A program made the translations under genes and the position numbers. Shown here in pieces: positions 6,302 through 26,220 of a stretch of DNA of 64,000 nt; the first letter of the stretch is position 1, and each line of letters opens with the position of its first letter. This DNA comes from Cyanobium sp. PCC 7001. Lineage in GTDB: Bacteria > Cyanobacteriota > Cyanobacteriia > PCC-6307 > Cyanobiaceae. The DNA lies in contig NZ_DS990556.1 in the NCBI RefSeq assembly GCF_000155635.1, positions 2,552,607 to 2,616,606 on the forward strand, given 5' to 3'. A model generated the notes under the pieces. That model saw only the letters and a list, made by a program, of their open reading frames with translations. It was not told the origin of the DNA and ran no database searches.

Positions 6302-6355
6302 GATCTGACCTCGGACACCCTGCGATTCACTCCCTCACCGGTCTTCCCGCCCCGC

Positions 6356-6622: not shown

Positions 6623-6645
6623 GCAAGGTCTTCAGCGGCAGGCCT

Positions 6646-8934: not shown

Positions 8935-10118
8935 GGGCCGGGGCCGAGAGCGTTGAGCAGCTTCTCCAGACTGCCGCTGGGAAGTCCCTGACGCAGGACC
9001 AGACGCAGCCGCGCCGTCCCCTCGGGCACTGTGGGCGGGCGTATCGCCACCGCCAGCAGTCCAGCGGCCTCGAGCCGCTCCTGCAGCGCCAGGGCCTCAG
9101 CGTCAGCCCCGATCAGCAGCGGCAGGATCGGCCCGCTCCCGGCAGGCCGGGGCCAGCCCGCAGCCTCGAGAGCATCGCGCCAGCGCTGGGCCCGTCGCAG
9201 CAACGCGGGGCCGGGATCGGTGGCCTGGATCACCTTCAGGGCAGCCAGTGCCGCGGCTGCCAGGGGCGGTGCCAGAGCCGTGGTGTACCGGAAGGCGCCG
9301 CTGGTCTGGAGCAGCCATTCCATCACGGTGTCATCCCCGGCCAGGAAGGCCCCGCCGCTGCCGAAGGCCTTGCCGAAGGTGCCGCAGATCAGAGCGATGG
9401 AGGGAACGCCGTGCCCCAGGCCACGACCGCCCGAGCCGAGGATGCCGAGGGCATGGGCTTCGTCGAGGATCAGGGCGGCGTCGTAGCGCTCACAGAGCTC
9501 CGCCAGGGCGGGCACATCAGGGCTGGTGCCCTCCATGGAGAAGAGGCTTTCGCTCAGCACCACCAGGCGCTGTTGGGGGCTGCGTTGTCGGGCGGCTTCA
9601 AGCTTCCGGGCCAGGTCCGAGAGGTCGTTGTGAAGGAAGCGCTGGAGCCTGGCTCCGCTGGCGCGTACTCCGGTGAGCAGCGAGTTGTGGATCAGCCTGT
9701 CCGCCAGCACGAGGCTGTGGCGATCGGCGAGGGCCATCACGGCGGCCAGATTGGCTTGGAAACCGCTGGGAAAGAGGAGGGTCTGATCGCGGCCAAGCCA
9801 GGTGGCGAGTGCGCGTTCGAGGATGGCGTGAATCGGCCGGTGACCCGTAACGAGTCTGGAGCCTCCCGCCCCTACCCCCTCGGCGCAGATGACCTGCTGG
9901 GCCGCCGCCATCACGGCAGGGTGCCCGTTCAGCCCGAGATAGTCGTTGCTGGCCAGATCAAGCAGTGCCGAACCCTGCTCGGTCAGCAGGCTGGGCTCGC
10001 TGCTGCCGTGCTGGTCGGCCGCAGTGGAGCGCGTCAGATAGCGGAGGCGACGCCTTCGCTTGGCGCTCAGGGCTGACACCCTCTCGCCCAACAGCTGCTG
10101 CCACCCCGGCGCTTCCAC
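8925..10118 (-). CDS. bioF: 8-amino-7-oxononanoate synthase BioF
   Basis: 397 residues. A PLP-dependent alpha-oxoamine synthase condensing pimeloyl-ACP/CoA with alanine. Visible landmarks: LASNDYLGL near residue 56, GAGGSRLVTG, LLFPSGFQANLA, the LDEAHALGILG motif (219-228) and the Schiff-base lysine K250 in CGTFGKAFGSGGAF. Length is normal for the family. It is the first gene of the biotin operon; the region upstream of its start (10119 onward) must hold the operon promoter, but no BirA-type operator was recognised. Confidence 0.95.
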   Translation of the reverse strand: MEAPGWQQLLGERVSALSAKRRRRLRYLTRSTAADQHGSSEPSLLTEQGSALLDLASNDYLGLNGHPAVMAAAQQVICAEGVGAGGSRLVTGHRPIHAILERALATWLGRDQTLLFPSGFQANLAAVMALADRHSLVLADRLIHNSLLTGVRASGARLQRFLHNDLSDLARKLEAARQRSPQQRLVVLSESLFSMEGTSPDVPALAELCERYDAALILDEAHALGILGSGGRGLGHGVPSIALICGTFGKAFGSGGAFLAGDDTVMEWLLQTSGAFRYTTALAPPLAAAALAALKVIQATDPGPALLRRAQRWRDALEAAGWPRPAGSGPILPLLIGADAEALALQERLEAAGLLAVAIRPPTVPEGTARLRLVLRQGLPSGSLEKLLNALGPGPCR

Positions 10119-10968
10119 ATGATCTGTTCTGCCCTGGTTCCAGGCTAGGTTCCGGCGGGAACTCAGGTGGGCAGCGGGCTGGGTGGCTCTGTCCGGTCAC
10201 GGTTGGGGAGTCCTGAACAGGACCCGCGTCATGCCCGCATGGGTTCTTCAGGAGTTGGAACGACCTGGTCTGCTGCCCGCGTCCGTTCCAGTTGGGTGAC
10301 ATGCTGCGCTGCAGGAACACGCTTGCAATACCGTCAATGGTGAAGGTTCTAACTGGGGCCATGATCACGCTGGGGCCACGATCAGGGTCAGGCAGCGACA
10401 TGCCTTTGCTACAAGGCCTATCGATCGTGTGTGCCCTTCAGCATTCAGCCTGTCCACCTGTGGTGTTTTGATGATGTGACGTTGTAATGCATTGGGGAAC
10501 TCCAGAGTGCATTGGTTGCTGCGGCCGCTCGAGTCCCAGCCAGTAGTCACCAAGTTTGAGTCAAGATGAGGGCACAGGATGCGCTCAGGCTGATATCTTG
10601 CCAATCAAGATTGGCGCCTCTGCGTTGTCGTTTGAAGCTTTCTCATGAAAACTTAGCTTATGCAGAGGCAATTGATTGCTGCAGTAACTGGCTGAATCAC
10701 GATCCATCGCCATTGCAGGGTCGCAATAAAGCAACTCGAAGCGTCACTGACAGATGGGTGAGGCATTTAAAGTCTGTTGGATCAACTCGCAAGAACATGA
10801 CCTTAGAGCTTGAAAAGCTGTGCATTGTTGCGTGATGAGCTTGTCAAACGCGCCAATGAGCCTTTGGGAATCTGGTTTCAGACGTATGGATGGAATGTGG
10901 TCAGTTCAGCTGTAAGGAACTGTGATAGCCTTCAAGTGATGGAACCTTGATGAGGTGATGGCAAGACC
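10119..10968. other. 850-bp intergenic region between bioF and the AT-rich island
   Basis: No convincing gene. Short open frames occur on both strands but lack coding character and recognisable motifs. Base composition drops across this stretch, from GC-rich near bioF to clearly AT-richer by about 10600, marking the left edge of the variable island. It should carry the promoter of the biotin operon (minus strand) and that of the RgpF-like gene at 10969 (plus strand). One strong imperfect hairpin is annotated separately at 10211-10253. No tRNA remnant or attachment-site repeat was found. Confidence 0.6.
10211..10253. other. Imperfect long hairpin
   Basis: Three paired blocks read by eye: TCCTGA (10211-10216) with TCAGGA (10248-10253), AGGACCC (10219-10225) with GGGTTCT (10241-10247, one G-U pair), and GCG (10226-10228) with CGC (10236-10238), around a short loop. 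About 16 pairs with one small bulge. There is no T-run on either side, so it is not a standard intrinsic terminator. It may be part of the biotin operon leader or a small RNA. Confidence 0.4.
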
Positions 10969-12102
10969 ATGGCAAGGCAGTGGTTTTCATGGCGAGGGAA
11001 GTGGGCCAGAAAAGTTCTAGCCCCACTGACTTTCGGCTCGCTCACTGGCAGGTCAAAGGCCCAGCAGGCGAACCCTAAGCCGACACTCCTGCGTGTGACA
11101 GGGCTGCACCGGTTGGCGGCAGCTCCTGTATCCGTCACTGTCATCTTCGTCCACTATCACCATCGAGGGCTCGTCACCGATGGGTTCAAGCGGCTGATTC
11201 GCTCATCTGTGGAAGCCGGATTTCGAAGCCTCTTGGTATCCTCAATGATTTCGGAGGAGGAAATTCAAGAACTCTCTAGCTTGAATCTTGCCATCGCAGT
11301 ACGAGCCAATTATGGCTATGACTTTGGCTCAATAAGAGAAGCAAGAGACTTGTTAATGAAGCATGATCTGCTTCAGTCGAGCCGCTATGTCTTTATCAAT
11401 AGCAGCATGCTCAATATCGCCAGCCATGGGTTTGGGCAAGATGCGTTCCTGGACGCACTCGCCAACCAGAGTTGCGGTGATGATCTTCTTGGCATCACTG
11501 GATCTTTCGAGGATCGAAGCTATCATATTCAGACATACTTTTTTAGTGTTTCATCCAAACTCTTTGAATCAAAGGCATTCGGTCGGTTTTTGGGAGACTA
11601 TATTCGCGGATTAAAAGTAACAAAAGAATCGCCGCGTCTCTATGCAATCAAGAATGGAGAGCTCAAGCTGACCCGCTTTGCGATTAGTCAAGGCATGTCC
11701 GTAGGTACCTTGCTCTTCAATGGAGGATTTCCAACGATTGAAGATTATGAGTTGATGAAAGAGCTTAGTGGCAGCCTCGCCAAGTATCTTCATGTTGACT
11801 TCGTTGGACAGAGAACTAAGTTGCACTCACTCATTGACGACTTCTCGTCTGAATGGATGCCATCGGCTGGCCTCCAGTTCAACCCATCTCAGTCTTGTTG
11901 GGCGCTACTGATGGCTAAAGGATTCTTGTTCATCAAACGGGAAGCTCTAGAACTTAGTGATAGTCGAAGTATCCACGCTCCTTCAGTTTGTGCCATGATT
12001 ACTCCCTTGATGCACCAGCTAGGTATTTCCCTGCCAGCATGGTCAGACCTTAACTATCTCCCGAAAATCCTCTTCGCGCCCAAGGCAAAATCAGGAAGTT
12101 AA
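10969..12102 (+). CDS. RgpF-like rhamnan/glycan synthesis protein
   Basis: 377 residues. The section SVTVIFVHYHHRGLVTDGFKRL, then the diagnostic ANYGYDFGSIREARDLL and YVFINSSMLNI, matches the rhamnan synthesis F (RgpF) family, proteins that act in assembly of rhamnose-rich and other cell-surface polysaccharides, probably as glycosyltransferases on the cytoplasmic side. No membrane helix is evident. The ATG at 10969 gives a basic N-terminal 40 residues before the conserved core; a later start is possible. Codon and base use are AT-richer than in the biotin genes. The next gene is a second, more distant RgpF-like protein, so the two may act together. Confidence 0.75.
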   Translation: MARQWFSWRGKWARKVLAPLTFGSLTGRSKAQQANPKPTLLRVTGLHRLAAAPVSVTVIFVHYHHRGLVTDGFKRLIRSSVEAGFRSLLVSSMISEEEIQELSSLNLAIAVRANYGYDFGSIREARDLLMKHDLLQSSRYVFINSSMLNIASHGFGQDAFLDALANQSCGDDLLGITGSFEDRSYHIQTYFFSVSSKLFESKAFGRFLGDYIRGLKVTKESPRLYAIKNGELKLTRFAISQGMSVGTLLFNGGFPTIEDYELMKELSGSLAKYLHVDFVGQRTKLHSLIDDFSSEWMPSAGLQFNPSQSCWALLMAKGFLFIKREALELSDSRSIHAPSVCAMITPLMHQLGISLPAWSDLNYLPKILFAPKAKSGS

Positions 12103-12156
12103 ACCTAAGGCTAAAGCTAAGGCCTGATTATGACTTTCTGATTAGATCGTTCTTTG

Positions 12157-13281
12157 ATGACACATCATCACGCGTCCAAGATAAAGCCCGGATTTGATTC
12201 GGAATTCTATTGTCGCTCCTACTCCTCGGGATCCAGTGGAATTCGGGAGGATCAAGCCCTTGGTCATTATCTTGAAAGAGTCGATAGATCTGAAGTCTAT
12301 GGCTCAGCTCAAGACTATATTTATAGAAATCTTCAAGATTCTAGTCTGTTGGACTATCGTGAGGAGATAGCAGCACGATTCTCTTGGGTTGATTATCTTG
12401 CCTGTAATGCAGACTTGGCTGCGATGACGCCACTGCAAGCTGTTCGTCATTACATCACATACGGGATCTACGAGCCTAGACAAACTGACTCGAAAGCTCG
12501 CTTGCTAGACCGTAGGTATGCATTGAGTGGAATCTATGAGAATGCATTTACTTCTGATTACCCAATCCAAGTCATCATTCATTGTTATCATTTTGATGTA
12601 CTCTGTCGCATGCTTTCGTACCTTCGGTCTTTGGCTAGAGTTGGAGCGGTCGTAAGGCTTGTTGTGGCCAATCAATCGATAGAAGCAAGTGCTCTCGATG
12701 ATCTTCTGAGTTCTTTGTACACTGGATATCGAAAGCACTCTTGGGAGAGAGTAACTAACTATGGTGAAGACTGGTCTTCATTCCATCATTTGTTCTATAG
12801 TGGCGCATTCTCTTCTCGCGGAGCTACGTTTAAGCTTCAAACGAAAAAGTCGTCCAATCTCGGAGCAGATGGTGGGATGGCGTGGGTTGACGAAGCCCTG
12901 CAACCAATTGCCAGTTCCTACCGAGCCACTGCAACTGTCATTAAGAATCTAAAGGCTGGTACCATCAAGCTTGCTGCAAGCAAGCTTTGCAAGCGCACAG
13001 GTTTTGGTGCGAACCCACAACTTGTTGCTGAATATATCCACCGGCTTGGACTGAATGAGCAATCTGCTAAGCGGCAAAGCTTCTGCATGGGATCCATGTT
13101 CGCAGCAGACAATGACTTGATCCAGTTGTTTTACTCCTCTCTGGGTGATGTCGATTATCGTATAACGTCAGATGGTGGCTCACAGTTCTGTGGCCGTTAT
13201 CCAGGCCATGCAATTGAGCGAGCATTCTTCTATTATTCCTATCAAGCTTTAGGAGATCAGTCGATCGTGTGGTTGACTTAG
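12157..13281 (+). CDS. RgpF-related glycan protein with N-terminal tandem YL..G motifs
   Basis: 374 residues from the ATG at 12157. The N-terminal third carries two copies of a motif common at the ends of surface-polysaccharide glycosyltransferases (FDSEFYCRSYS...ALGHYLER and WVDYLACNADL...AVRHYITYGIYEPRQ). The rest resembles the RgpF fold: PIQVIIHCYHFDVL near residue 130, then LGADGGMAWVDEAL, and the C-terminal FCMGSMFAADNDLIQLF and PGHAIERAFFYYS, which correspond to the GTMFW and HA.ER.F patterns of RgpF. A role in capsule or O-chain glycan assembly is inferred. It lies 54 bp after its RgpF-like neighbour and is AT-rich (positions 12301-12360 are 22/60 G+C by hand count). Confidence 0.65.
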   Translation: MTHHHASKIKPGFDSEFYCRSYSSGSSGIREDQALGHYLERVDRSEVYGSAQDYIYRNLQDSSLLDYREEIAARFSWVDYLACNADLAAMTPLQAVRHYITYGIYEPRQTDSKARLLDRRYALSGIYENAFTSDYPIQVIIHCYHFDVLCRMLSYLRSLARVGAVVRLVVANQSIEASALDDLLSSLYTGYRKHSWERVTNYGEDWSSFHHLFYSGAFSSRGATFKLQTKKSSNLGADGGMAWVDEALQPIASSYRATATVIKNLKAGTIKLAASKLCKRTGFGANPQLVAEYIHRLGLNEQSAKRQSFCMGSMFAADNDLIQLFYSSLGDVDYRITSDGGSQFCGRYPGHAIERAFFYYSYQALGDQSIVWLT

Positions 13282-13349
13282 TGCTGCTGAGCTGTCGGGG
13301 CATAGCTAGAGCTTCGAAGTAGAAGGTTCAATTCAATAACTACTGCTCC

Positions 13350-14930
13350 TTATTCGGCTAACACCTCATGGTGAGGAAGCGGCCTAAGTGTCAAGTCCTT
13401 CCGTCTTATTAGGAAGCGATACCCCTCCTGTTTCCCGTACAGAGTTTGAGGCTGCCGTGAAACAAAGTTCATGACTGAAAAACAAAAGTGTCCAGATGAG
13501 GAGATACATCCAACACTTCCTGCAATTAGTTCCAAGGCGGAATCATTGTGCTTTGGTTCATTGCCTATGATTGACGAGCCATCGAAATAGATGTTTGCGT
13601 CTCGAATGAGTGTGGCCTCTGCCTGGTCAACTGCATCATGGATTGCAGCGATGACACTGGTGATACCTTGTCCACTGCGCTCGGAGATCCAACGCAGACA
13701 TCTTTCCTTGAGTAGGATTTCTCGAGCGTGTGAATACCCATCACTGATAAATCGAACGGATTGGTTGGGAAATAGTCTTTGGCTCAACATGGACATGCTT
13801 TGAGGCGTGTAATTGTTGGCTCGGAAGGAAGGTGTAGATTGGACCCACTGATCGTGAGTCATGGCATAGTTATCAAGAAAATAGGGAATAATCTCTATCC
13901 CAAGCACCCAAAGCCTGGCTGTATCTCCAAGTCTGCTATGACAAACAACATAAGAATCTCCCTTATCGCCGCTCTTCCCGTCTAGAGAAAAGTGAAGATT
14001 AAAATTTCTTGAAAAAAAAGCCTCATCTAGACTCGTAAAGACGTGATGACCTCGTTTTGGCCGTTTATCATTAAGGCCAATTGAGCTCGATAAGAATCTG
14101 CAGATTGTTTCGTAGGTACCAGCTCCTCCACTGAGGATGACGTTGGAGGAGACTGAAGACCCAACGCAAGCAGCATAATAATCCGAAAAAAGGTCCAGAA
14201 GCACCTGCGTCATGGAGGAATTCTTTCCAGTGCCCTTAGGTAAGTAGCCACCGATATGTCCAGTGCTACTAAGTCGTTGGTCAATGTTCTGGACAATCTT
14301 ACTGAGTGAGGCAATTTGGGATCTTCTCGCCGTATCGTTATGAGCGTTATCCAGAATCATCACATCATTAGCACTTGAACTGAGACCAACTAAATACAGA
14401 AAGATAAATTGATAAGCCAGTCCCATAATTATATCGCCAAAACCAGCTTCTAATGTAATCGAGTGGTTTATATGCCGCTTGAGGAGTTCATCCCGAAGAG
14501 CGGATATCAATGCTGTCTCAATGAGCGTGATTCTAATCTGACTGACTGGTAGAGACGATGTGTCAAACTCAATTGCATCTGCAAAGTACGCTGCGGGTTT
14601 GCCATCTTGTAGGAATCCCTGAAGGCAATAAAAAGTGTGATTGCGTGAGCACGTCTCTTCAATCTCAACACCAAGACGACTTCCAAGTAAGGAGAAAGCC
14701 GCTGACCAAGGGCGACTATGTGTCTCAGTACTTATGGTTGAAGACTCAGGGCAATACTCAACAACGATGCTGATGGCTTGGATGGCGTAACAGCGAGGTA
14801 GTTTGTAGATAAGACGACTTCGCTGTCGTCTAGCTTGAATTTCTATGGAACTTGATGAAACATCATCTGTCTGAAGAAAAGCTGTCGGGATTTCAGACAC
14901 CTGGGACGGACTTGCGATATTCTTTGGCAT
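13350..14930 (-). CDS. Putative glycosyltransferase, GT11/GT23-like, with unusual N-terminal domain
   Basis: 526 residues. The C-terminal half has features of fucosyltransferase-type GT-B enzymes: SYVVCHSRLGDTARL (like the H.RxGD donor-site motif), VRFISDGYSHAREIL (like the SDD-type loop) and ELIAGSVGCISSSGHFCFS, which resembles the terminal SNSSFSWW-type motif. The N-terminal 140 residues are beta-rich and weakly resemble the discoidin-like domains of the two FkbM genes nearby. A short A8 run lies at 14012-14019. The exact donor and acceptor are unknown and the family call is tentative. The gene faces its plus-strand neighbour tail to tail, 68 bp apart. Confidence 0.5.
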   Translation of the reverse strand: MPKNIASPSQVSEIPTAFLQTDDVSSSSIEIQARRQRSRLIYKLPRCYAIQAISIVVEYCPESSTISTETHSRPWSAAFSLLGSRLGVEIEETCSRNHTFYCLQGFLQDGKPAAYFADAIEFDTSSLPVSQIRITLIETALISALRDELLKRHINHSITLEAGFGDIIMGLAYQFIFLYLVGLSSSANDVMILDNAHNDTARRSQIASLSKIVQNIDQRLSSTGHIGGYLPKGTGKNSSMTQVLLDLFSDYYAACVGSSVSSNVILSGGAGTYETICRFLSSSIGLNDKRPKRGHHVFTSLDEAFFSRNFNLHFSLDGKSGDKGDSYVVCHSRLGDTARLWVLGIEIIPYFLDNYAMTHDQWVQSTPSFRANNYTPQSMSMLSQRLFPNQSVRFISDGYSHAREILLKERCLRWISERSGQGITSVIAAIHDAVDQAEATLIRDANIYFDGSSIIGNEPKHNDSALELIAGSVGCISSSGHFCFSVMNFVSRQPQTLYGKQEGYRFLIRRKDLTLRPLPHHEVLAE

Positions 14931-15082
14931 GACTACAACAACTTATGCCGCACAGCAGGTGTTGTAACTAAGCTGATCCTCATAATATTGTGATTTTCGA
15001 GAATAGCTCCATGGAGTTTGTGGCGCACACAGTCTACTGCTTAGAAGTGATGAAGCTGGTGCAACGCTTGAACGCCCTTCCT

Positions 15083-16486
15083 TCATGATTGATGGGATGG
15101 TGATAAGACTCGAATAGATGAAAAGTGGAGCGCTGTGTCTTGTGCAGAGATCTTGAGGAATCTTGCTCTAAGTCTTGGTAAATTCGTTCGATGTATGGAC
15201 TTCTTTCCCGAGAGAAAAGCTGCAGATTCAAGCAAGGGAATGGCCGAGGGTAAAATTGGTAGCTGATTGTCATCCATAAGCACGAGACTGAGGCATCTCG
15301 CGCGGGCTTGGCACGAATCCGTGCGGTTGCCGATTTCCAATGCGGTGACTTCGACCGGTCTGCCTAAGTCAATCATCAGCCATGGATTATCTTCAATGCA
15401 AGTATGAAAGAAAAATGGACGGAATTCGGTTACCTTCTCAATCCCAAGATCAAAGGGTTGGAGGCGTGAAGAAAAAGATATACTGCAGTCTTGAGCAACA
15501 TCGACTTCATCATGTCGGTCTTGTTGAAGATAGCTGTGCTGAGGATCTACGGTGCCAGTACTTAATGAGCTAAGTTGCAACTCTAGTAATTTCTCCATCC
15601 CGTGCCTTAATGTCTCAATCCTCTGATGTAACGAGATGAAATCAAGATCTTTATCGTGCATTTCCAACCTTATCTTGCCAACTGTTGCTGCCAGTGAACT
15701 GGAATCCGTTACCCATGGCTTGCCAAGGGCAATGGAACTCATGGTCTCATTATTGATGATATCAAGAAAGTGAGGGATCACAACTTCTCCACCCTGTCGA
15801 ATTCGATCTCGGCGCAGAAAAGTCACTTCGACCATACTTGGAATCAATGGCTGACCATTGCCATAGTCTTTGACGAAGCTTGTGTTATTGGGGTGAATAT
15901 GGACACAGGAGTGGGTTTGAGAAATCTTTCTCAGGTTTGGTAAAACTATGTTGGAGGCAAAATTGGCTTTATCTAGCTTGTCAAGATCGTGAAGCTCTAG
16001 CACGATAATGCGAAAATCTGATAGCAATGACTCAGGACAGCTACTAAGAACGTCCCACTCCGCCCCTTCTATATCCATCTGCAGAATTAAATCATCACCC
16101 TTCTCGCAATTCTCATTGATGAGATCTTGAAGGCTGACCTGCATCTGCTCAAGATTCGACTTGGCTGCCAGCCACTTCTTGTAGAAGATCTGCTTGCCTT
16201 CCTGCAAGGGAGTTGCAAAGAGCTGTGGGTCGGAAGTGTAATCAACAAGAATGCTTTTGACGCCATAAAGCTCAAGGAGCTGATCTTCAAAGTATTTGAA
16301 GTTATTTACCCCCGGGGAGATGCACCACTTGATGCCCTCGAGATCATCTGGTAAAAGATATGCCCCGTCTTTGTCTCCGCCTATTCTGATTAGCTTGTGT
16401 CCGCAGGGGCGTGGCTGGAGATAACTGACGATCTCGGTTAACACGCTTTCCGGATTAAGCCCGAATCGTTGATGGTCTTCGTTCAT
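15083..16486 (-). CDS. FkbM-type methyltransferase with C-terminal discoidin-like (F5/8 type C) domain
   Basis: 467 residues. Residues about 30-240 form an FkbM-like SAM methyltransferase: RIGGDKDGAYLLPDD, CISPGVNNFKYFEDQL, ILVDYTSDP, LILQMDIEGAEWDVLS and RIIVLELHDLDKLDK. After a linker of roughly 80 residues with coiled-coil character (IRLEMHDKDLDFISLHQRIE), a C-terminal domain begins whose FFFHTCIEDNPWLMIDLGRP and VTALEIGNRTDSCQARAR are typical of discoidin-like domains that bind carbohydrate or lipid surfaces. O-methylation of a surface glycan is the likely job. The same two-domain layout recurs at 18513-19598. Confidence 0.75.
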   Translation of the reverse strand: MNEDHQRFGLNPESVLTEIVSYLQPRPCGHKLIRIGGDKDGAYLLPDDLEGIKWCISPGVNNFKYFEDQLLELYGVKSILVDYTSDPQLFATPLQEGKQIFYKKWLAAKSNLEQMQVSLQDLINENCEKGDDLILQMDIEGAEWDVLSSCPESLLSDFRIIVLELHDLDKLDKANFASNIVLPNLRKISQTHSCVHIHPNNTSFVKDYGNGQPLIPSMVEVTFLRRDRIRQGGEVVIPHFLDIINNETMSSIALGKPWVTDSSSLAATVGKIRLEMHDKDLDFISLHQRIETLRHGMEKLLELQLSSLSTGTVDPQHSYLQQDRHDEVDVAQDCSISFSSRLQPFDLGIEKVTEFRPFFFHTCIEDNPWLMIDLGRPVEVTALEIGNRTDSCQARARCLSLVLMDDNQLPILPSAIPLLESAAFLSGKKSIHRTNLPRLRARFLKISAQDTALHFSSIRVLSPSHQS

Positions 16487-18512
16487 GGCGGTTTGGAGAT
16501 CTGTTGATTATACAGATAAATCTCGCTCCCTCATACTCTCTATCCATACTGGCTCAGCTTGCGGGAGCATCCGCGGTCTCGCCCCAGTGTCCCCCTTCCC
16601 AACGTCTGAAAATTCGGTTCGCCTCTCACGTCGCTGGTGGTGGCGTTGATGCCGTTATTAGAGGGCCTTCCGTGAATGTAGAGATTTTGCCATCCTAGCC
16701 TCCTGATCAGTGGATGAAGACGAGAGAAATTCTGCTGTATTAATCCTCTCTAGAGCGCCTGTGCGTCCGGATTGTGGTTGTGTCGCCCAAGTCTGTCTTG
16801 ATGTGGGATATGCTCTCCATTGCAGGTCCCGCTAATTCGAGAGCTGCTGATTGTTCAGACAGCTTTCTGCTGCTGAATCATCTCAGGCAGAGTCTATCCA
16901 TGCAGAGCTGAGCTGGCGGAGCTGGTGCTGAGCTGAATCCGATACTGCCAGCCATCAGCCAGGCTTTCGGCAGATGGGAGAACAGCTCAACTGTCAGGAC
17001 ATCATCCTTCAAGCGACTATTGCTAATTCTTCAAGATACGGCAGTGTCAGTTTGAACCTTTTGGAATAGAGGATGTACTAGTGTCTTTGCTAGGCGCTGA
17101 TTCATGCGGTATTGGCAATGAACTCAGGGCAATACCCACGCGCAGTTGGATAAGATAAGATATGGTGCGCCAGGTTTCTGAAGCATCTTGCTCTTTTTGA
17201 CCGGCTTACATCTTCATTCGACATGACTGCCTAGATGTCGTAGCCATAGTCATTTCCAAGACCCCAGAACTTCAGGCGTGGGCCCTCTCTCGCTGAGACC
17301 AACTGGACGTCAAGGGCTGAACCCTGTGGTGCAGGAGCTTTGACATCAGCAGCCCCAGCCATCCGTGTGCAGGTGGGGGACAAGGTCCTGCAGGTGCCTC
17401 TGGAATCCTGATTCCATCCAGATCCGTTGAACATGCGGACGGTGGACACGCCAAGCCGCGAGCCGGAGTCACCGATACGTCGACCTATGACCTGCCAGCC
17501 CACGGGCACTCCTCCTTAAGCCCCTATACGTTGGTTTGGATGCACCTCCGCATTGCGACGTCCTTCCTTCCTGGCTCGGAAGATTTCCATGACAGGCTCC
17601 TGATGCCGTGCAGAAGCCATCGTGGAGAGCTGGGTGTTTGCCGTCTCCGGCTGCTTCGAGCGTTGGGCCTCGATTGCCTTGGCCTCAAGCCTACCTTGTC
17701 ACCATGCCTGCGTAGAACTGTACCGACGGTGTTACGCGGGTGTTGAGACTCTGAGGGCTGCGGAGATCTCCGACGGTCTGGCTTTTGATCAGCAGGTGCT
17801 CCCTGGTGTGCAGCCTACGGATGACCTGCATTGCTGGGTTGCGAGGCTTCCCTAGGACTTCTCTTGGCCAGAATTGGCCTTTGGTGACGCTCTGATGAGG
17901 CTTGGTGCAGTGTTTGGGACTATCATGTACACACAGTCGCTGCCGAATTCCTCAGTGATTCTGTTCTACAATTGACTAGCTGGATGAGAGTATCTGTTTG
18001 CCCAAGCCAGTCTTCAACTACTCAGGCTCGTGTTACGAGTCTGGCATTGATCTGCTGGCTTCTTAACCTTTTCGCGCTGTTTGCGCCACGTGGAAACGTC
18101 CAGAGGCCCGCAGCGAGCGTATAATCCGGCTGGTTTTTCTCATGTGCGAGACAATGATTCCTCTATTATTCCGGCCTCGTGGCTTCTCAGTCTCTTGGCG
18201 AGTATTCTCCACAGCTTCTTCTGTGATCAACCTCTTGTGCGACCGTGAGTTCGGTTCCCCTGCCCACCGAACTGAATCGCCTTGAGCCGGTGGCCTTGAT
18301 GCCACCACTTGTGTGTTCTGTTGAGAGCTCCTTGACCTTCCTCCCCTCGGAATACCCACACTCGCCCCGAGCGATTCTCAGTTGTCTTCAGCCTGGGGGG
18401 CACTCCTGTTTGCCAATAGACTTGCATTTATGGCTTGGCATTGCAACATGTGCTATGCCACCAGTTATCTGGCATTCCAGCTTTACTCTTTATCGCTAAC
18501 CAATCTCCACTC
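16487..18512. other. About 2 kb with no recognisable gene
   Basis: Composition is intermediate and no open frame shows coding character or a known motif. The longest candidates (minus strand 17231-17509, 92 codons; minus 18063-18359, 98 codons; plus 17531-17746 and 17622-17855) overlap each other, lack matches I can name, and look like random frames or decayed genes. The 92-codon frame, with VGWQVIGRR, VRMFNGSGW and TLSPTCTRMAGAADV, faintly resembles a worn FG-GAP/VCBS repeat but not enough to call. No transposase, tRNA or long inverted repeat was seen. Confidence 0.5.
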
Positions 18513-19598
18513 ATGAGTCATCACTCGTACTACCTGCCTGGACAAGTCGTTCTTCATATTGGCGCCAATTACGGACACGAAGTCTCCTCGTATGATGCGG
18601 TAGGGCTTCGTGGGTATCATGTCGAAGCCATTCCACAGGTATTTTCGAAGCTCAAGCAGAAGTGTGCAAAGAGCAAGTATCAGGCTTGCGTCTGCGCCTG
18701 TCTATCTGATGCTGTTGGCGAGAAAGTTGTCTTTAATATTGCGGGCAACAACGCTGAGAGCTCCTCGATGCTGCCACTCGGGCGTCATCAGCTTGCCTAT
18801 CCCCATATCCAATACACAGACTCCGTCGAACTGCTGACCGAAACAGTGGACCACCTTCGGTCGACTGGCGTCCTCCCAGAGATGGCTCACCACCTGGTCA
18901 TTGATGTCCAGGGTGCAGAGCTCAAGGTTCTCTCAGGTGCCACTAAGCTATTGCAGTCTGAGGCCTTGCAATCTGTGGTGGTGGAGGCTTCGGCTGAGCC
19001 GCTCTATGAGGGTGGGGCAGCATTTTCAGAAGTCTTCTCTTTACTGACGCGATATGGTTTTTACCTTCGTGAGGCCAAGTTCAATTTCCATGGCTGGTGT
19101 GATGCTTTATTCATGCGGCCTTGGTGGCCGCGTGAGGCGATCCAAATTCAGACATCGGGTACTAACATTGCACCACGGGCCAAGTGCACCCAGAGTTCCA
19201 TTTCTCCTTGGTCATATGGAGCGCAAGAGGCTGCCAATGTGGTGCAAGGTCGACTGAATGGCTCCTATGCGTTTCATACACTCGAAGAGATGCATCCTTG
19301 GCTCACGATGGATCTCCAGCAGGAATATGACATTCATGAGATCTTGGTTTACAATCGTGTCGTTGATGGTAGCGACATTGCCGCAAGAGCTGCTTCGCTT
19401 AGAACATCAATATCCTGCGATGGAGAGCATTGGAATGTGATCCATTTATCCGATCGAGTCTTTGGTGGTATTGACGGCTTCCCCCTGCGTGTAGGGTGTG
19501 ATGGCCTTCGAGCACGTTATGTACGTTTGGATCTTGCCGCATCAAAACCTCAGCCATTGCATCTTGACACGGTTGAGATCTATTCGACCGAAGACTGA
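18513..19598 (+). CDS. FkbM-family methyltransferase with C-terminal discoidin (F5/8 type C) domain
   Basis: 361 residues from the ATG at 18513; the frame is open upstream but without coding character. Residues 1-215 are an FkbM methyltransferase: VVLHIGANYGHEVSSYDAVG (SAM motif), GYHVEAIPQVFSKLK, ESSSMLPLG, HLVIDVQGAELKVLSGA and VVVEASAEPLYEGG. Residues about 225-361 form a discoidin domain: SYAFHTLEEMHPWLTMDLQQ, IHEILVYNRV, LRTSISCDGEHWNVIH and ARYVRLDL. The FHT.E..PW..DL core is shared with the 15083-16486 protein, showing the same module in both. Probably O-methylates a glycan and binds a surface polymer. It ends the AT-rich island. Confidence 0.85.
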   Translation: MSHHSYYLPGQVVLHIGANYGHEVSSYDAVGLRGYHVEAIPQVFSKLKQKCAKSKYQACVCACLSDAVGEKVVFNIAGNNAESSSMLPLGRHQLAYPHIQYTDSVELLTETVDHLRSTGVLPEMAHHLVIDVQGAELKVLSGATKLLQSEALQSVVVEASAEPLYEGGAAFSEVFSLLTRYGFYLREAKFNFHGWCDALFMRPWWPREAIQIQTSGTNIAPRAKCTQSSISPWSYGAQEAANVVQGRLNGSYAFHTLEEMHPWLTMDLQQEYDIHEILVYNRVVDGSDIAARAASLRTSISCDGEHWNVIHLSDRVFGGIDGFPLRVGCDGLRARYVRLDLAASKPQPLHLDTVEIYSTED

Positions 19599-19823: not shown

Positions 19824-22514
19824 GTGAATTCCTATTTTCCTTTTCCTTTAGACTCCTTCCAGCTTGAAGCCTTGGACGCCTTGAGCCAGGGAAGTTCTGT
19901 TGTTGTGAGTGCGCCCACAGGCAGTGGGAAGACGATTATCGGAGAATATGCGATCTACCGTGCCTTGGAGCACGGCCAGAGGGTTTTCTATACAACCCCA
20001 CTCAAGGCGCTTTCCAACCAGAAACTACGCGATTTCCGTCAACAGTTCGGTGCGGAGCGGGTGGGTTTGCTCACCGGTGATCTCAGCCTCAATCGGGAGG
20101 CCCAGGTTGTTGTGATGACCACCGAGATCTTCCGCAATATGCTCTATGCGGAGATCGACAACCCCGATGATGATCCGCTGGCAGATGTCGAGGCCGTGGT
20201 GCTCGATGAGTGCCATTACATGAACGATTCCCAGCGCGGCACTGTCTGGGAAGAATCAATCATCCATTGCCCACCCTCGATTCAGTTGGTGGCCCTATCC
20301 GCCACTGTGGCCAATGCCGGTCAGCTCACTGACTGGATCGACCGGGTTCATGGACCGACCCGGCTGATTTACAGCGATCATAGGCCTGTCCCCCTGGACT
20401 TCAGTTTCTGCAGCGCCAAAGGCCTCCATCCGCTTCTCAATGACGCCGGCACGGACCTCCACCCGAACTGCAAGGTCTGGAGGGCGCCGAAGGGGCACCG
20501 CCGTAAGGGACCGAAAACCCCAAAGCCTCCGCAACCGGAGGCGCCACCCCTGGCCTTTGTGATTGCCCAGCTGGCGGAGCGCGACATGCTCCCGGCCATC
20601 TACTTCATCTTCAGCCGCCGTGGCTGTGACAGGGGAGTGCGTGACCTCGGCAAGGTCTCTCTGGTCAGCGCCGAGGAGCAGGAACGGATCCGGGCCAAGC
20701 TTGAGGCTTTCACGGAGGTTTCATCCGAGGCCGTTCGCGATGGTCACGCCGAGCCACTGTTGAGGGGCATCGCCTCCCATCACGCCGGGGTGCTGCCGGC
20801 CTGGAAGGAGCTGATCGAGGACCTGTTCCAGCAGGGTCTGATCAAGGTGGTGTTCGCCACCGAAACGCTGGCCGCCGGCATCAACATGCCGGCCCGCACC
20901 ACCGTGATTTCGGCCCTCTCCAAGCGCACCGAGCGCGGCCACCGGCCGCTGATGGGCAGCGAGTTTCTCCAGATGGCCGGCAGGGCCGGCCGCCGCGGGC
21001 TTGATTCCCAGGGTTACGTCGTCACCGTGCAGAGCCGCTTCGAGGGAGTGCGCGAGGCGGGCCAGCTGGCGCTGGCACCGGCTGATCCTTTGGCCAGCCA
21101 GTTCACTCCCAGCTACGGCATGGTGCTGAATCTTCTCCAGCGCTATGACCTGCCCAAGGCCAGGGAGCTTGTGGAGCGCAGTTTCGGTCGCTATCTCGCC
21201 ACCCTCGACCTGGCCGAGGATGAGGCCCGCATCCGCGAGCTTCGCGCCCAGCTTGCCTCGCTCGAGGCCGGTGGAGGAGAGGTGCCATGGGAGGAGTTCG
21301 AGGATTACGAGAAGCAGCGCAGTCGCCTCCGTGAGGAGCGGCGCCTGCTGCGCACCCTTCAGCATCAGGCTGAAGAAACGGTCGCTCACGAGCTCACTCT
21401 TGCTCTTCAGTTCGCCAGTGAGGGCACCCTGGTGAGCCTCAAGGCCCCCCAGTTGCGGGGCCGGATCACCCCGGCTGTGATCGTCGAGAAGATCCAGGGC
21501 TCCGGCCAGTTTCCCCTGTTGCTCTGTCTCACCGATGAGAACCTCTGGATCCTGCTCCCCTGCAGTGCGGTGGTGAGTCTGCACGCCGAACTCAGCTGCC
21601 TCCAGGTGCAGCAGCTCGATGTTCCAACCCTGCGCCATCCCGGTGAACTACGCCATGGCGACCAGGCCAGTGGCGGGCTCGCCCTGGCCGTCAGCTCGAT
21701 GGCCCGGCGCCATGACATGGCCACGCCCCAGTACGACCTGGCCGGCGAGGTGCAGCAGCAGGCTCGCCAGGTGCGCCAGTTGGAGGAGGCGCTTGAGCTC
21801 CATCCGGCCCACCGCTGGGGTGATCGCAGGCAGCTCAAGCGCCACCGCCGCCGGATGGACGAGGTGGCGGCCGAACTGGAGGAGCGCCAGCGGCTGCTGC
21901 ATTTCCGCTCCAATCGGCACTGGGACACCTTCATGGCCCTGATCGAGGTGCTCCGCCACTTCGGGGCTCTGGCCGGTGAGGATGGTCTGGAGCCCACCGA
22001 TGTGGGCCGCACCGTAGCGGCGTTGCGCGGTGACAATGAGTTGTGGCTGGGGCTGGCCTTGATGACCGGCCACCTGGACGCCCTGACCCCGGCTGAACTG
22101 GCTTCGGTGCTGGAAGCCATTTCCACCGAGGTCAACCGCCCCGATCTCTGGTGCGCCTGGGCGCCTCCGGCTGCCGTGGAGGAAGCCCTCCATGACCTTC
22201 GCAGCCTGCGTCGGGAGATCGCACGCCAGCAGGACAATGCCGGAGTGGCGTTCCCGATCTGGTGGGAGCCGGAACTCACCGGGCTTGTCCATGCCTGGGC
22301 CTCAGGCACCAGCTGGAGCGAGGTGATGGCCAATACCTCGCTGGATGAGGGAGATGTGGTGAGGGTGATGAGACGCACGGTGGACCTTCTCAGCCAGGTG
22401 CCCTACTGCGAGGCTGTGACACAGCAACTGCGTGATCACGCCCGTCTTGCGCTGAAGAGCATCAACCGTTTTCCGGTCTGTGAACTTGAGGACCTCCTTC
22501 CAACGGAGTCATGA
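19824..22514 (+). CDS. SKI2/ISE2-like DEAD/DEAH-box RNA helicase
   Basis: 896 residues from a GTG at 19824. A superfamily II helicase: motif I APTGSGKT at residues 30-37, TTPLKALSNQK (motif Ia), LLTGD, VVLDECHYMND (motif II, DECH), LSATVAN (motif III), then the second RecA domain with IYFIFSRRGCD, FATETLAAGINMPARTTV and QMAGRAGRRG (motif VI). The C-terminal third corresponds to the DSHCT domain of Ski2/Mtr4 helicases. The cyanobacterial form is the relative of chloroplast ISE2 and is thought to act in RNA metabolism. Its stop lies 4 bp before DUF1997, and the capsule export genes follow with tiny gaps, so they may share transcripts. Confidence 0.92.
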   Translation: MNSYFPFPLDSFQLEALDALSQGSSVVVSAPTGSGKTIIGEYAIYRALEHGQRVFYTTPLKALSNQKLRDFRQQFGAERVGLLTGDLSLNREAQVVVMTTEIFRNMLYAEIDNPDDDPLADVEAVVLDECHYMNDSQRGTVWEESIIHCPPSIQLVALSATVANAGQLTDWIDRVHGPTRLIYSDHRPVPLDFSFCSAKGLHPLLNDAGTDLHPNCKVWRAPKGHRRKGPKTPKPPQPEAPPLAFVIAQLAERDMLPAIYFIFSRRGCDRGVRDLGKVSLVSAEEQERIRAKLEAFTEVSSEAVRDGHAEPLLRGIASHHAGVLPAWKELIEDLFQQGLIKVVFATETLAAGINMPARTTVISALSKRTERGHRPLMGSEFLQMAGRAGRRGLDSQGYVVTVQSRFEGVREAGQLALAPADPLASQFTPSYGMVLNLLQRYDLPKARELVERSFGRYLATLDLAEDEARIRELRAQLASLEAGGGEVPWEEFEDYEKQRSRLREERRLLRTLQHQAEETVAHELTLALQFASEGTLVSLKAPQLRGRITPAVIVEKIQGSGQFPLLLCLTDENLWILLPCSAVVSLHAELSCLQVQQLDVPTLRHPGELRHGDQASGGLALAVSSMARRHDMATPQYDLAGEVQQQARQVRQLEEALELHPAHRWGDRRQLKRHRRRMDEVAAELEERQRLLHFRSNRHWDTFMALIEVLRHFGALAGEDGLEPTDVGRTVAALRGDNELWLGLALMTGHLDALTPAELASVLEAISTEVNRPDLWCAWAPPAAVEEALHDLRSLRREIARQQDNAGVAFPIWWEPELTGLVHAWASGTSWSEVMANTSLDEGDVVRVMRRTVDLLSQVPYCEAVTQQLRDHARLALKSINRFPVCELEDLLPTES

Positions 22515-22518
22515 CTCC

Positions 22519-23049
22519 ATGAGCAGTGGGAGTCTCGAGCTGAGTGAAGGTCTGGCGACGGTGGTCGACCTGCAGCGTTCAGGGGCGCGCCGCTTTGCCA
22601 GCCACCCTGGCCGGGTGCTGGCAGCCCTGCTCAGCCGGGATCGCTTGAGGAAGCTGGGCCCGAGTCGCTTCCGTTACCGCTCACGTCCGGTTGCTGTGGG
22701 GCCCTGGGAGCTTCAGCCTGAGCTTCTCTTTCGTGCGGAGTGGGACGGCACGGCAGTGTCGATCCGGCTAGAGGACTGTCAGCTGCACGGTTTCCCCACT
22801 GGGGCGACCCAGCCTCCGATCCGTTTCGAGATGGACGCGGTGATCCGGCCGACGGAGAGCCAGCTCATGGCGGAGGCCACCACCCGTCTTGTCATCCCCT
22901 CGGGCTCGGCGGCCCGGCTCCTGCCGCGCTCCTTGCTGCGTCTTCTGGGCCAACAGGCTCTGCTGGCCTGTCTGGCCCGGCTGGAAAAGCGTTGCCAGAC
23001 GCGGTTACCATTGGTGGCCCAGGCCTGGATGCAGCGTGGTAGTGACTGA
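22519..23049 (+). CDS. DUF1997 protein
   Basis: 176 residues from the ATG at 22519, four bases after the helicase stop. The sequence (RFRYRSRPVAVGPWELQPEL, FEMDAVIRPTESQLMAEATTRLVIP, RLEKRCQTRLPLVAQAW) matches the cyanobacterial/plastid DUF1997 family of uncharacterised soluble proteins. There is no signal peptide. It sits between the helicase and the KpsT-like gene, with only 4 bp to the latter, which places the capsule exporter genes at the tail of a housekeeping transcription unit. Confidence 0.8.
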   Translation: MSSGSLELSEGLATVVDLQRSGARRFASHPGRVLAALLSRDRLRKLGPSRFRYRSRPVAVGPWELQPELLFRAEWDGTAVSIRLEDCQLHGFPTGATQPPIRFEMDAVIRPTESQLMAEATTRLVIPSGSAARLLPRSLLRLLGQQALLACLARLEKRCQTRLPLVAQAWMQRGSD

Positions 23050-23053
23050 CATC

Positions 23054-23932
23054 ATGGACCCTCGGATCGAGCCGAGGAGCTCCGATGACCTGGATCGCGG
23101 CACGATCTATTTCAAGAATGTCACCAGGCGCGTGTCCTTGGGGGGCACGCGGTCGCTTGCTGCACTTGACGATGTCTCCATCACGATTCCGGCGGGAAGT
23201 CGACTCGCTTTATTCGCCGACGGTATGGAGACAAGCAGGGCTTTCTTGAGCTGTCTTGCAGGCCATGATCCGATCAGCTCCGGCACGTTGCTGGTTGGCG
23301 GATGCTCCTCATGGGTGATTGGCTCTCGCATGCCGCTGATGCCTTCCTTGTCAGGCAGAGACAACGCAGACTTCCTGATCTCGGTGTATGGAGTTTATGA
23401 TGACGATACAAGAGAGCTTGACTTTATTGAGAAGCTTTGTGATCTCGGAGAGCTCTTCGATCAGCCTCTGGAAAAGTATTCCAGCGGCATGAAGGATCGA
23501 TTCAAGCTTGCGCTGTCTCTTGCCTTCCAGTTTGATGTGTATCCGGTGATGCGCTTCGATGGCTGGAACTGCCGATCCGAAGTTCCTTTCATGCAACAAG
23601 TCAAGCGCCTAGTTGATCGCCGCTTGGAGGGCAGGACCCTGATCGCGGAAGCTTCTGGCTCTCAAAGCTTTGCTCGAGACTACTGCACAACAGGAATCGT
23701 CTTCAAAGATGGTCAGATTATTCTCCAGGGAACGCCTGATGAATGCGCCACCCTTGCGAAGGAAGTTCGAGCTGCCAGAAAGGATCGATCGTTGTCCCGA
23801 TCCCTGAGGCAGCATTCCGATGTTGAAGATTCACTTGAAGACACCATGAATGAGCTTCTCGAAGCCAGCCAGCCCAGCACGGGTTCTAATCCTGGCCTCG
23901 AGAATTCTCAGGATCGAAACCTACCTTCCTGA
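23054..23932 (+). CDS. KpsT-like capsule export ATPase with degenerate nucleotide-binding site
   Basis: 292 residues. The whole length aligns by eye to KpsT of ABC-2 capsule exporters: IYFKNVTRR, ALDDVSITIPAGSRLAL, the GRDNADFLISVYG segment, LGELFDQPLEKYSSGMKDRF (signature loop SSGM intact), and CTTGIVFKDGQI. The catalytic parts are lost. The Walker A position (residues 54-62) reads FADGMETSR instead of GRNGAGKST, Walker B Asp-Glu is Met167-Arg168, and the H-loop His is Gly202. It should therefore bind or hydrolyse ATP poorly or not at all. A C-terminal tail of about 60 charged residues (SLEDTMNELLEAS...) is extra. It lies directly upstream of kpsM. Confidence 0.85.
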   Translation: MDPRIEPRSSDDLDRGTIYFKNVTRRVSLGGTRSLAALDDVSITIPAGSRLALFADGMETSRAFLSCLAGHDPISSGTLLVGGCSSWVIGSRMPLMPSLSGRDNADFLISVYGVYDDDTRELDFIEKLCDLGELFDQPLEKYSSGMKDRFKLALSLAFQFDVYPVMRFDGWNCRSEVPFMQQVKRLVDRRLEGRTLIAEASGSQSFARDYCTTGIVFKDGQIILQGTPDECATLAKEVRAARKDRSLSRSLRQHSDVEDSLEDTMNELLEASQPSTGSNPGLENSQDRNLPS

Positions 23933-23950: not shown

Positions 23951-24742
23951 ATGATCTTTCAGAAACTGCTCCTTCAGGTCAGGATTGTCAACGCCATTGC
24001 CAGGCGCGAGTTGCAGATGCGGGCGGCCAAAGGCCCCATGGGTGTCGCCGGTGTCTTTGTAGAGCCACTATTCTTCATCGCCATCTTCATGTCCTTTCGG
24101 CTGTTCGGCACGCAAGGCAGCCTTCAGCCTGATTACATCAATCCGGTGATGTGGATGGCCATTGGCTTTGTTGGTTTCTTCATGTTCTCGGAAGTGGCAC
24201 TCAAGGCTCTGGGTGGAGTGAAGAAAAGCACCAAGCTCACCTATTACAGCCGAATCCGGCCAATTGACTACCTGCTTGGCTCTGCTGTCCTTGATACCCA
24301 GGTTTTTTCCCTGCTGATCCTTGCCTTTATCCTTGGATCTTTTCTCTATGAATGGAAGCCCATCGTTGAGGAGCCAGGTCTTGCCGTCTTTTACTTCATC
24401 ATGCTCTCGCTCCTCGCGTTTGGAGTGGGTCTGGTTACCTTGATCATTGGCCATCGTCTTCCATTTGTAGCCAGTCTTGCCAGGACTGCCGTAAGGAGGC
24501 TGCTTCTGTTCACGTCCTGCATCTTCTTCTCAATCAGCACAATCCCCAATATCTTCCGCGGTTGGATTCTTTGGAATCCCCTGGCCCACGGAATTGAGTT
24601 ATTGCGCCATTCGTTTAATCATGATTATCCAATTCCGGGGGTCTCTGCTGCATACCTGATCGGATCAACGGTGTTCTTGCTTGGCTTTGGCTTCGTGATT
24701 TATGGCAACAACGAATCTCTGCTTCTCTCCGACGAGGAATGA
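23951..24742 (+). CDS. kpsM: KpsM-like ABC-2 capsule export permease
   Basis: 263 residues with about six membrane helices in the ABC-2 arrangement (VAGVFVEPLFFIAIFMSFRL, WMAIGFVGFFMFSEVALKAL, YLLGSAVLDTQVFSLLILAF, AVFYFIMLSLLAFGVGLVTL, LLLFTSCIFFSISTIP, YLIGSTVFLLGFGFVIYG). The N-terminal ARRELQMRAAKGPMGVAGV corresponds to the amphipathic segment before TM1 in KpsM/BexB. The WNPLAHGIELLRHSFNHDY loop is a family hallmark. It forms the inner-membrane channel for the lipid-linked polysaccharide. 18 bp separate it from the KpsT-like gene, and 92 bp from kpsE. Confidence 0.9.
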   Translation: MIFQKLLLQVRIVNAIARRELQMRAAKGPMGVAGVFVEPLFFIAIFMSFRLFGTQGSLQPDYINPVMWMAIGFVGFFMFSEVALKALGGVKKSTKLTYYSRIRPIDYLLGSAVLDTQVFSLLILAFILGSFLYEWKPIVEEPGLAVFYFIMLSLLAFGVGLVTLIIGHRLPFVASLARTAVRRLLLFTSCIFFSISTIPNIFRGWILWNPLAHGIELLRHSFNHDYPIPGVSAAYLIGSTVFLLGFGFVIYGNNESLLLSDEE

Positions 24743-24834: not shown

Positions 24835-26220
24835 ATGAAGTCTTCCAACCGCAAGCGCAGTACGCTCGCCTCCGCTTCGGCTCGCCAGCGCCGACATGCT
24901 CGCTATGGTCTGCAGGGTCGGCCTGAAGCCAGTGCGCTTGAGGTGGGGATGATTGCTGGTGGTTTGGCAGGTCGCATCAGCGGTTCGCTCTCGCAGGTGC
25001 TCCGTGCCCTGGGCCTGGCTGAGGACGAGCTTCCCAACGTAGGACCCACTCCCCAAGGCACGGACTCAACCAAGCCAGGCTTGCGTTCCCGCTGGGATGA
25101 TCTCAAAAATCGAGCCAGCAACGCCCCTTACAGACGGTGGCTTGTCCCTGGACCGAAGCGCTTGGCGGCTTTGGTGCTGGTTGCCGGTGTTGCTTACTTC
25201 GGTGTGATTGGCCGTAGCCGTTACCAGGTCACCTCGGATTTCATTGTTCGCTTGCCGCAAGCACCCAACAATGTCACCCCGTCCCTGCTTGGGACCGTGC
25301 TTGCAGGTCCGACAATGCTGGGGTCGTTGGAAGACGGCCGCTTCCTTGCTGTTTATCTGACATCACCCGAGGTGATGCAAAGGGTGTTCCTGCGGTTGGA
25401 GCCGGAGACGACCTACGCCAAAAAGGGTCTTGATCCGTTTGCGGGCATGCCCAAAGATGCCCCATTTGACCAGAAACTTGCTTTTTTCAGGAGGCAAGTC
25501 AGCGTTGTTCCCCAGGATCTGACCGGTGTGATCCAGCTGACGACCACTGGCTTGAACCCCGCAACCGCTTTCGAGCTCAATCGCCTGCTGCTCAACGAGG
25601 CTGAGAACTTTCTTAACACCTCTAATCAGAATATCAGCCGCAATCAGCAAACGTTTGCCGAGCAGGAGCTGGAGAATGCTCGTGAGCGTCTGGCTAAGGC
25701 CCAGCAAGCCTTGGCGGCCTTCAATGACAGTCAGGGCGAGATTAATCCCGAGGCCTCTGCAGAAGCCACGAGTCGTTACATCGCCGGCATGGAGGCCAAA
25801 TTGGTGGATCTTCAGGTTGAGGAGGGCAGGCTACGTCGTCAGTTCTTGGACCCCAACGCCCCTGAGGTTGCCTTTGTCACAGACCAGATCATTGAGTTGA
25901 AGCAGCAGATTGATGAAGAGCGCGCCAAACTGGTAGGGCCAGACGAAAAAAATCTCAACCAAAGGCTCGTCAAGCTCCGTAACCTCCAAACGGAAGTTGG
26001 TTTCGCTGAGGCATCTGTCAAGGCTGCCCAGCTCGCTGCGGACAACAGCAGGCTCGAGAGTCAACGTCAGCTCAAGTTCCTCGTACTGCTCAGTAATCCG
26101 GAGACCCCCTCAGGTCAATCTCTCGATTGGCGCTGGAAAGGCCTTCTTTCGCTCGTGGGTCTGTTGCTGGTGGGCTGGGGTGTCGCCAGTTTCGTCCTTG
26201 GCATTTCCCGACGCCAGTAA
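24835..26220 (+). CDS. kpsE: KpsE-like capsule export inner-membrane (PCP family) protein
   Basis: 461 residues. A membrane helix near residues 108-126 (RLAALVLVAGVAYFGVIG) and a second near the C-terminus (GLLSLVGLLLVGWGVASFVLG) enclose a large periplasmic region with a long coiled coil (AEQELENARERLAKAQQALA ... EEGRLRRQFLDPNAPEVAFV). This is the layout of KpsE/BexC/CtrB, which link the ABC exporter to the outer-membrane KpsD/Wza channel. The DPNAPEVAFVTDQI segment is typical. Unlike E. coli KpsE (about 380 aa), there is a basic, Ser/Gly-rich cytoplasmic extension of about 105 residues. Confidence 0.88.
   Translation: MKSSNRKRSTLASASARQRRHARYGLQGRPEASALEVGMIAGGLAGRISGSLSQVLRALGLAEDELPNVGPTPQGTDSTKPGLRSRWDDLKNRASNAPYRRWLVPGPKRLAALVLVAGVAYFGVIGRSRYQVTSDFIVRLPQAPNNVTPSLLGTVLAGPTMLGSLEDGRFLAVYLTSPEVMQRVFLRLEPETTYAKKGLDPFAGMPKDAPFDQKLAFFRRQVSVVPQDLTGVIQLTTTGLNPATAFELNRLLLNEAENFLNTSNQNISRNQQTFAEQELENARERLAKAQQALAAFNDSQGEINPEASAEATSRYIAGMEAKLVDLQVEEGRLRRQFLDPNAPEVAFVTDQIIELKQQIDEERAKLVGPDEKNLNQRLVKLRNLQTEVGFAEASVKAAQLAADNSRLESQRQLKFLVLLSNPETPSGQSLDWRWKGLLSLVGLLLVGWGVASFVLGISRRQ

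Follow-up and report, generated by a model that had tools for sequence, protein, structure and literature searches.

Why do two neighbouring methyltransferase genes of the cyanobacterium Cyanobium sp. PCC 7001 end in the same kind of module, and what would that module bind? We analysed a window of 64,000 nucleotides (contig NZ_DS990556.1, positions 2,552,607 to 2,616,606) from this 2.83 Mb genome; coordinates below are those of the window, and the two genes are called A and B. An earlier note on this DNA described both as FkbM-type enzymes with a C-terminal discoidin module of the pattern FHT..E..PW..DL. The two open reading frames (ORFs), the FkbM matches and the pattern stand, the pattern having three residues, not two, ahead of DL (FHTCIEDNPWLMIDL in A, FHTLEEMHPWLTMDL in B), whereas the generic discoidin label does not. 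Sequence and a predicted structure identify the module as an F-type lectin domain (fucolectin, CBM47). A and B are, in our view, rather probably cytosolic sugar O-methyltransferases that the lectin tethers, by way of fucose-like residues, to a surface polysaccharide still in the making. Their parts are as follows.

15083-16486, minus strand: gene A, 467 amino acids, with a methyltransferase, a linker with a short heptad pattern and a predicted F-type lectin domain (from the ORF list, Pfam and AlphaFold)
15713-16441, minus strand: methyltransferase core of A (about residues 16-258), Methyltransf_21/22-like, with conserved CISPGV, LQMDIEGAE and HIHPNN
15581-15664, minus strand: linker helix of A (residues 275-302) with a weak heptad pattern (9 of 200 shuffles score equally high)
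15092-15481, minus strand: predicted C-terminal F-type lectin domain of A (about residues 336-465), with the complete fucose motif H361, R388, D390 and R395
18513-19598 (ORF 18435-19598), plus strand: gene B, FkbM methyltransferase and predicted F-type lectin domain, 361 amino acids from ATG or 387 from TTG
18555-19061, plus strand: FkbM methyltransferase core of B (PF05050, 47.9 bits; TIGR01444, 47 bits against a cut-off of 37.7)
19155-19595, plus strand: predicted C-terminal F-type lectin domain of B, with H255 and R282 present

Residues of B are counted from the ATG at 18513, which is probably the true start; by eye, against the relatives L099 and L026 (G and L numbers are our handles for genomes and loci), the TTG at 18435 appears to lie 78 bases too early.

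The comparison of terminal domains that had been proposed for this locus finds more likeness between the modules of A and B than chance would give (blastp, 23.5% over 136 amino acids, E 5e-6). In Pfam, the family PF00754 matches the C-terminus of B at 38.9 bits, over the cut-off of 28.2, and that of A at 22.3 bits, under it. A profile built from four modules (A, B and their relatives in L019 and L021) and run against the PDB returned fucolectins or fucose-binding modules as its six best distinct sequences (E 2.6e-12 to 1.2e-7), among them FBP32 (2.6e-12), CBM47 (2j22, 5.5e-9) and eel agglutinin (1k12, 1.2e-7); lactadherin came next at E 1.6e-3. Searches with single sequences led to FBP32 as well, B at E 5.2e-13 (phmmer) and A at 1.8e-4. 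The AlphaFold model of A, the only one to which this comparison applies, shows the F-type jellyroll fold; with it, Foldseek ranked fucose-binding lectins or modules at positions 1-11, and the best VIA match was 3lei (Z 10.6, root-mean-square deviation 2.1, 102 residues, model 357-465). VIA aligns only the best chains from Foldseek, and families absent there may still match. Other galactose-binding-like domains are level with the lectins or follow them at VIA Z 9-10 with the same model, and F-type lectins are thus not singled out by their fold. By our comparisons it is sequence and motif, not fold alone, that set them apart from related modules.

The fucose motif is defined in PMC5712786 as H-x24-R-x-D-x4-(R/K). 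A carries it in full with a spacing of x26 (H361-x26-R388-T-D390-x4-R395). This spacing is that of eel agglutinin. The complete x26 motif recurs in L019 and L099, and these three account for three of the eight occurrences of the exact pattern in 261,115 ORF residues (from the window and some of the loci), with another of the eight being a chance match elsewhere in B. The lectin domain of B has H255-x26-R282 followed by RVVDGSDIAAR, a loop three residues longer than the canonical R-x-D-x4-R.

The catalytic halves of A and B are unrelated. A passes the curated cut-off of PF05050 (Methyltransf_21, FkbM; 22.7 bits) at 29.5 bits and weakly matches Methyltransf_22 (15.3 bits against a cut-off of 22.4), with 26.1 bits against the 37.7 required for the FkbM subfamily TIGR01444; A is therefore placed only in the wider Pfam FkbM family. 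Structural matches to S-adenosylmethionine (SAM) methyltransferases extend over residues 37-227 of its model. The mean predicted local distance difference test score (pLDDT) of this model is 71.3, from an alignment of 26 sequences in which only A and B cover the lectin part. Per ten residues, pLDDT is 54-85 from residue 361 on and about 35 or less at 336-360, and it falls under 50 at 303-365 and 391-395. Searched against each other, the methyltransferase halves of A and B give no match at E 0.01.

How widespread is this architecture? The genome holds four FkbM matches and two module copies; the search for further copies that the earlier note had called for returned those of A and B only. Among 386 genomes drawn from the phylum, the module occurs in three (Cyanobium sp. 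PCC 7001, G674 and G629); G192 and G119 also carry it but are not among the matches of that draw. A lectin profile run at E 0.05 over 133 sequences (836,812 bases, overlapping loci included) gave no copies beyond A, B and the relatives named here. G674 has a B-type FkbM-lectin fusion of 371 amino acids (L099). In G629, one protein carries the module after tetratricopeptide (TPR) repeats (L098), and a second joins it to DUF268 (L100; DUF268 at 103 bits), its start lost at a contig end. G192 encodes 761 amino acids (L019) that comprise a weakly glycosyltransferase-like part (Pfam E 0.02-0.03, under cut-off), an A-type methyltransferase and the lectin, and G119 has an A-type fusion of 459 amino acids. 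The claim that one module is spread over different catalytic partners is thus borne out: the A and B halves are unrelated, and B-type FkbM (L099), A-type (L019), DUF268 (L100) and TPR (L098) partners accompany it elsewhere. Generic F5/8 domains are found in 7 of 399 genomes of the order at E 1e-4, this one included; in five of the other six, the ORFs were inspected by eye and none is a methyltransferase.

The A-type methyltransferase occurs in 9 of 201 family genomes. Besides A and the fusions of G192 and G119, these comprise a methyltransferase with a coiled-coil-like tail (G195), four methyltransferases of 288-298 amino acids and a fragment in G103. B-type relatives among 60 related genomes are B itself and two others, G013 (with two internal stops) and G011, whose matches to B stop before the lectin. 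In G083 (L026:10024-11797), an insertion interrupts a B-type FkbM gene; the insertion contains a long ORF (10231-11184), presumably for an IS1595-type transposase. A phage origin of the fusion was also considered and set aside. Across 50,697 phage records, tblastn gave no A-type methyltransferase at E 0.001 and weak FkbM matches to B in nine records, none reaching the lectin.

Module identities are 36% between A and L019, 39% between B and L099 and 24% between A and B, so that each module is nearest to that of its own type of fusion partner. Since the modules pair in this way while the methyltransferases of A and B are unrelated, the comparison suggests two separate, old fusion events rather than a recent duplication. 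Fusion of an F-type lectin to a methyltransferase is rare, and it is a kind already on record: Bishnoi et al. (2015), as reported in PMC5712786, list methyltransferases among the domains associated with prokaryotic F-type lectin domains, in taxa that include Cyanobacteria. The architectures of A and B are of the same kind. Less ordinary, it appears, are two unrelated lectin-bearing methyltransferases in one locus and a link to NodZ. In the literature covered, which included few subscription papers, we found no paper joining an F-type lectin with FkbM or with Cyanobium.

Is fucose then made and handled in these organisms? The genome of Cyanobium sp. PCC 7001 has a GMD gene (575 bits, cut-off 415) and, adjacent to it, a GDP-L-fucose synthase-like gene (445 bits, under the cut-off of 500). 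In rhizobial Nod factors, the fucosyltransferase NodZ adds a fucose that the 2-O-methyltransferase NoeI then methylates. The NodZ family (PF05830) is found in 6 of the 201 family genomes at E 1e-4, and four of the six also have an A-type methyltransferase (expected 0.24, P 1.6e-5, with the genome of A left out and two draws of 201 genomes taken as one set, their handles agreeing wherever a genome is listed in both). The likeness to the NodZ/NoeI pair is that a NodZ-family gene is linked to the methyltransferase in G192 (6.5 kb), G083 (5.7 kb) and G103 (1.0 kb); the difference is that we found no NodZ in the genome of A itself. In G083, the A-type, split B-type, NodZ and GT11 genes lie within one 18-kb stretch. 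Elsewhere in the window, positions 34220-44073 hold genes of the sulfotransferase, glucose-1-phosphate cytidylyltransferase, CDP-glucose 4,6-dehydratase and C-methyltransferase types, and this CDP-6-deoxysugar pathway is a possible alternative source of a lectin ligand.

The surroundings of A and B include the following.

10969-19598, no strand: A+T-rich island, 48.6% GC against 70.8% in the left flank (bases 1-9500)
10969-12102 and 12154-13281: RgpF-like gene pair, weak PF05045 matches, both under cut-off
13350-14930, minus strand: gene C, 526 amino acids, no known family, co-oriented with A and directly downstream of it

The island thus contains two weakly RgpF-like genes followed by C, A and B. 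It is flanked by an aminotransferase gene (8925-10118, Pfam Aminotran_1_2), which we take to be bioF, and by a helicase gene (19824-22514), named Ski2-like by eye. The two RgpF-like genes are adjacent, one resembling the N-terminal and the other the C-terminal part of RgpF (PF05045); they are possibly a split rhamnan-synthesis F-like protein. Between A and B, about 1.9 kb (16487-18434, 54% GC) have no ORF of 100 amino acids and may be a degraded gene or a regulatory region. Beyond the helicase, 4-7 kb from B, are KpsM-like (23951-24742) and KpsE/BexC-like (24835-26220) genes, labels that denote the best family matches, under curated cut-offs. They are adjoined by a gene for a KpsT/Wzt-like ABC ATPase (22889-23932, plus strand) that, by eye, has neither the Walker A lysine (FADGMETSRAF) nor the Walker B acidic residues. 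The same losses are seen in five relatives (L102-L106; E 1e-20, 121 family genomes; 31-74% identity), and the protein is apparently a conserved, ATPase-dead subunit of a capsule exporter.

The resemblance that the N-terminus of C had been thought to show to the module was not confirmed: with every filter disabled, its score against the module profile is -1.1 bits, and the hhalign probability is 0.3%. By sequence comparison and searches of the genome, C was rejected as a third carrier; this judgement concerns sequence, and a likeness of fold alone may still exist, the AlphaFold model of C being unusable (built on an alignment of two sequences, mean pLDDT 35). C has no Pfam match up to E 10 and is rare, with one relative among 200 other family genomes; a pattern scan of genome contigs gave one match, on a contig of a cyanobacterial metagenome-assembled genome, apparently that same relative. 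The stretches VCHSRLGD, FISDGY and SSSGHFCFS occur in C in the order of the GT11 motifs, and hhalign placed the first of them opposite HIRRGD and the second opposite FSDD, at no significance. A GT11- or NodZ-type fucosyltransferase identity for C was nonetheless rejected and is only a lead (hhalign probability 0.2% for GT11 and 0.9% for NodZ, against 92% for GT11 with NodZ as a control); sensitivity is low for C because its profile rests on two sequences.

Where would A and B act? Neither A nor B from ATG 18513 has a hydrophobic N-terminus, as judged without a signal-peptide predictor; from the TTG start, that of B is mildly hydrophobic (mean 1.31). The surface location once suggested for the module therefore fares poorly, and targeting is more likely cytosolic, to a polymer before export. 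Of the two targets proposed earlier, a common polymer or a membrane, the polymer agrees with a fucose lectin, while the membrane is disfavoured by the position of lactadherin far behind the fucose lectins. Cytosolic action on a polymer before export is, on these sequence features, the simplest and more likely reading. A and B would be SAM-dependent sugar O-methyltransferases in the cytosol, and the C-terminal F-type lectin of each would dock on 6-deoxyhexose residues (L-fucose or a closely related sugar) in a lipid-linked polysaccharide under construction. Docking would hold the methyltransferase on the polymer, where the same or a neighbouring sugar would be methylated before the chain leaves through the nearby KpsM/KpsE-type exporter. 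The altered loop of B could mean another specificity or weaker binding; with the triad of A complete, the two enzymes may mark different residues.

Several observations weigh against this tethering. Eight relatives of A in other genomes comprise two with the lectin, five without it and the fragment of G103, and none of 51 A-type relatives on IMG/VR viral contigs (L042-L092; ORFs of 240-299 amino acids, mostly about 240) carries it; as most A-type relatives have no lectin, the enzyme works without one. The GDP-fucose genes lie about 1.4 Mb from the window, and profile searches of the genome gave no NodZ or GT11 match. With NodZ counted only over its curated cut-off, the overlap with A-type genes shrinks to three of five (P 4e-4); the NodZ of G119 is under cut-off and on a different contig from the A-type gene, and in G103 both genes are fragments. 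GT11 and A-type genes show no comparable overlap, with 11 of 121 genomes having GT11 and only G083 among them an A-type gene. Sugar genes cluster in general, and the linkage to NodZ could merely reflect this; it supports, and does not prove, a link to fucose. Domains that do not bind fucose, such as 3ggl (Z 10.1), stand level with the lectins in the VIA list, and R395 of A sits in the low-confidence loop 391-395 of the model.

The lectin domain could also have stopped binding sugar and now have a structural role in the methyltransferase or help it to dimerise, which we regard as rather unlikely. The exact motif is absent from the lectin domain of B with its longer loop, L021 has neither the His nor the last Arg, L098 has no His, and the short heptad helix in the linker of A would suit oligomers. 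Some members of the F-type lectin family do depart from the motif, according to PMC5712786. The full triad is kept in A, L019 and L099 at only 33-37% module identity (aligned parts), suggesting that selection acts on the binding site. It is highly improbable that the module is a membrane- or phospholipid-binding discoidin by which the enzymes are held at the membrane, one option of the earlier note. PF00754 is the F5/8 type C family, named after clotting factors, and the fold is common to both; however, lactadherin and factor V rank far under the fucolectins in the profile search, factor VIII C2 is at Foldseek rank 35, again under them, and A has the fucose triad. A further, unlikely, possibility is that A, like the Klebsiella O7 terminator, caps polysaccharide chains by methylating their ends; its coiled-coil linker would measure length and the lectin would keep hold of the chain. 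The methyltransferase-kinase terminators WbdD (PMC3482155) and Klebsiella O7 (PMC11231755) have coiled coils and act on polymers exported by ABC transporters; the latter paper describes coiled-coil rulers and, in the O7 protein, a predicted immunoglobulin-like carbohydrate-binding module (CBM) where A and B have an F-type lectin. KpsM/KpsE-like genes are close by, and in three of six A-family proteins the best heptad window follows the methyltransferase (shuffles as good: A 9/200, L019 0/200, L022 3/200). Yet the heptad stretch of A is short, the best window falls inside the methyltransferase in L021 (20/200), L023 (64/200) and L024 (137/200), and B has no heptad pattern (172/200). Unlike the terminators, A and B have no kinase module, and the KpsT-like ATPase, which looks dead, has no CBM-sized tail by eye.

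If A and B are indeed tethered to a nascent polymer, they extend what is familiar of F-type lectins, which are known mainly as secreted or serum proteins that recognise fucose. MsaFBP32 (3cqo), eel agglutinin (1k12), the Streptococcus pneumoniae modules (2j22, 2j1r) and lectinolysin (3le0) share the profile, the fold of the A model and the fucose motif of A. In contrast to these, the domains of A and B are fused to enzymes with no visible export signal, and the calcium motif, compared by eye on alignments, is not evident in A and appears altered in B (VVQGR where AIDGN stands). According to PMC5712786, this motif (h2DGx) is present in most, not all, members and replacements at the metal site are frequent.

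The finding corrects a label, since the annotation 'discoidin' hides a fucose-type lectin. The link to NodZ suggests that the surface polymers of picocyanobacteria contain methylated fucose. A more far-reaching idea, which we put forward as speculative and improbable as it stands, is a sugar code written by methyltransferases and read by lectins, in which two unrelated enzymes with intracellular lectins of different specificity recognise fucose-like residues of the nascent capsule chain and cap or mark it. Were it true, A would be a chain-capping methyltransferase with a coiled-coil linker and a lectin clamp, whether a chain ends, is exported or is recognised by phages would depend on methylation, and bacterial fucolectins would take part in biosynthesis within the cell. 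At the strength of the present data, it appears that a lectin domain directs biosynthetic enzymes in the interior of a cyanobacterium, which offers a testable handle on the sugar substrate of these methyltransferases.

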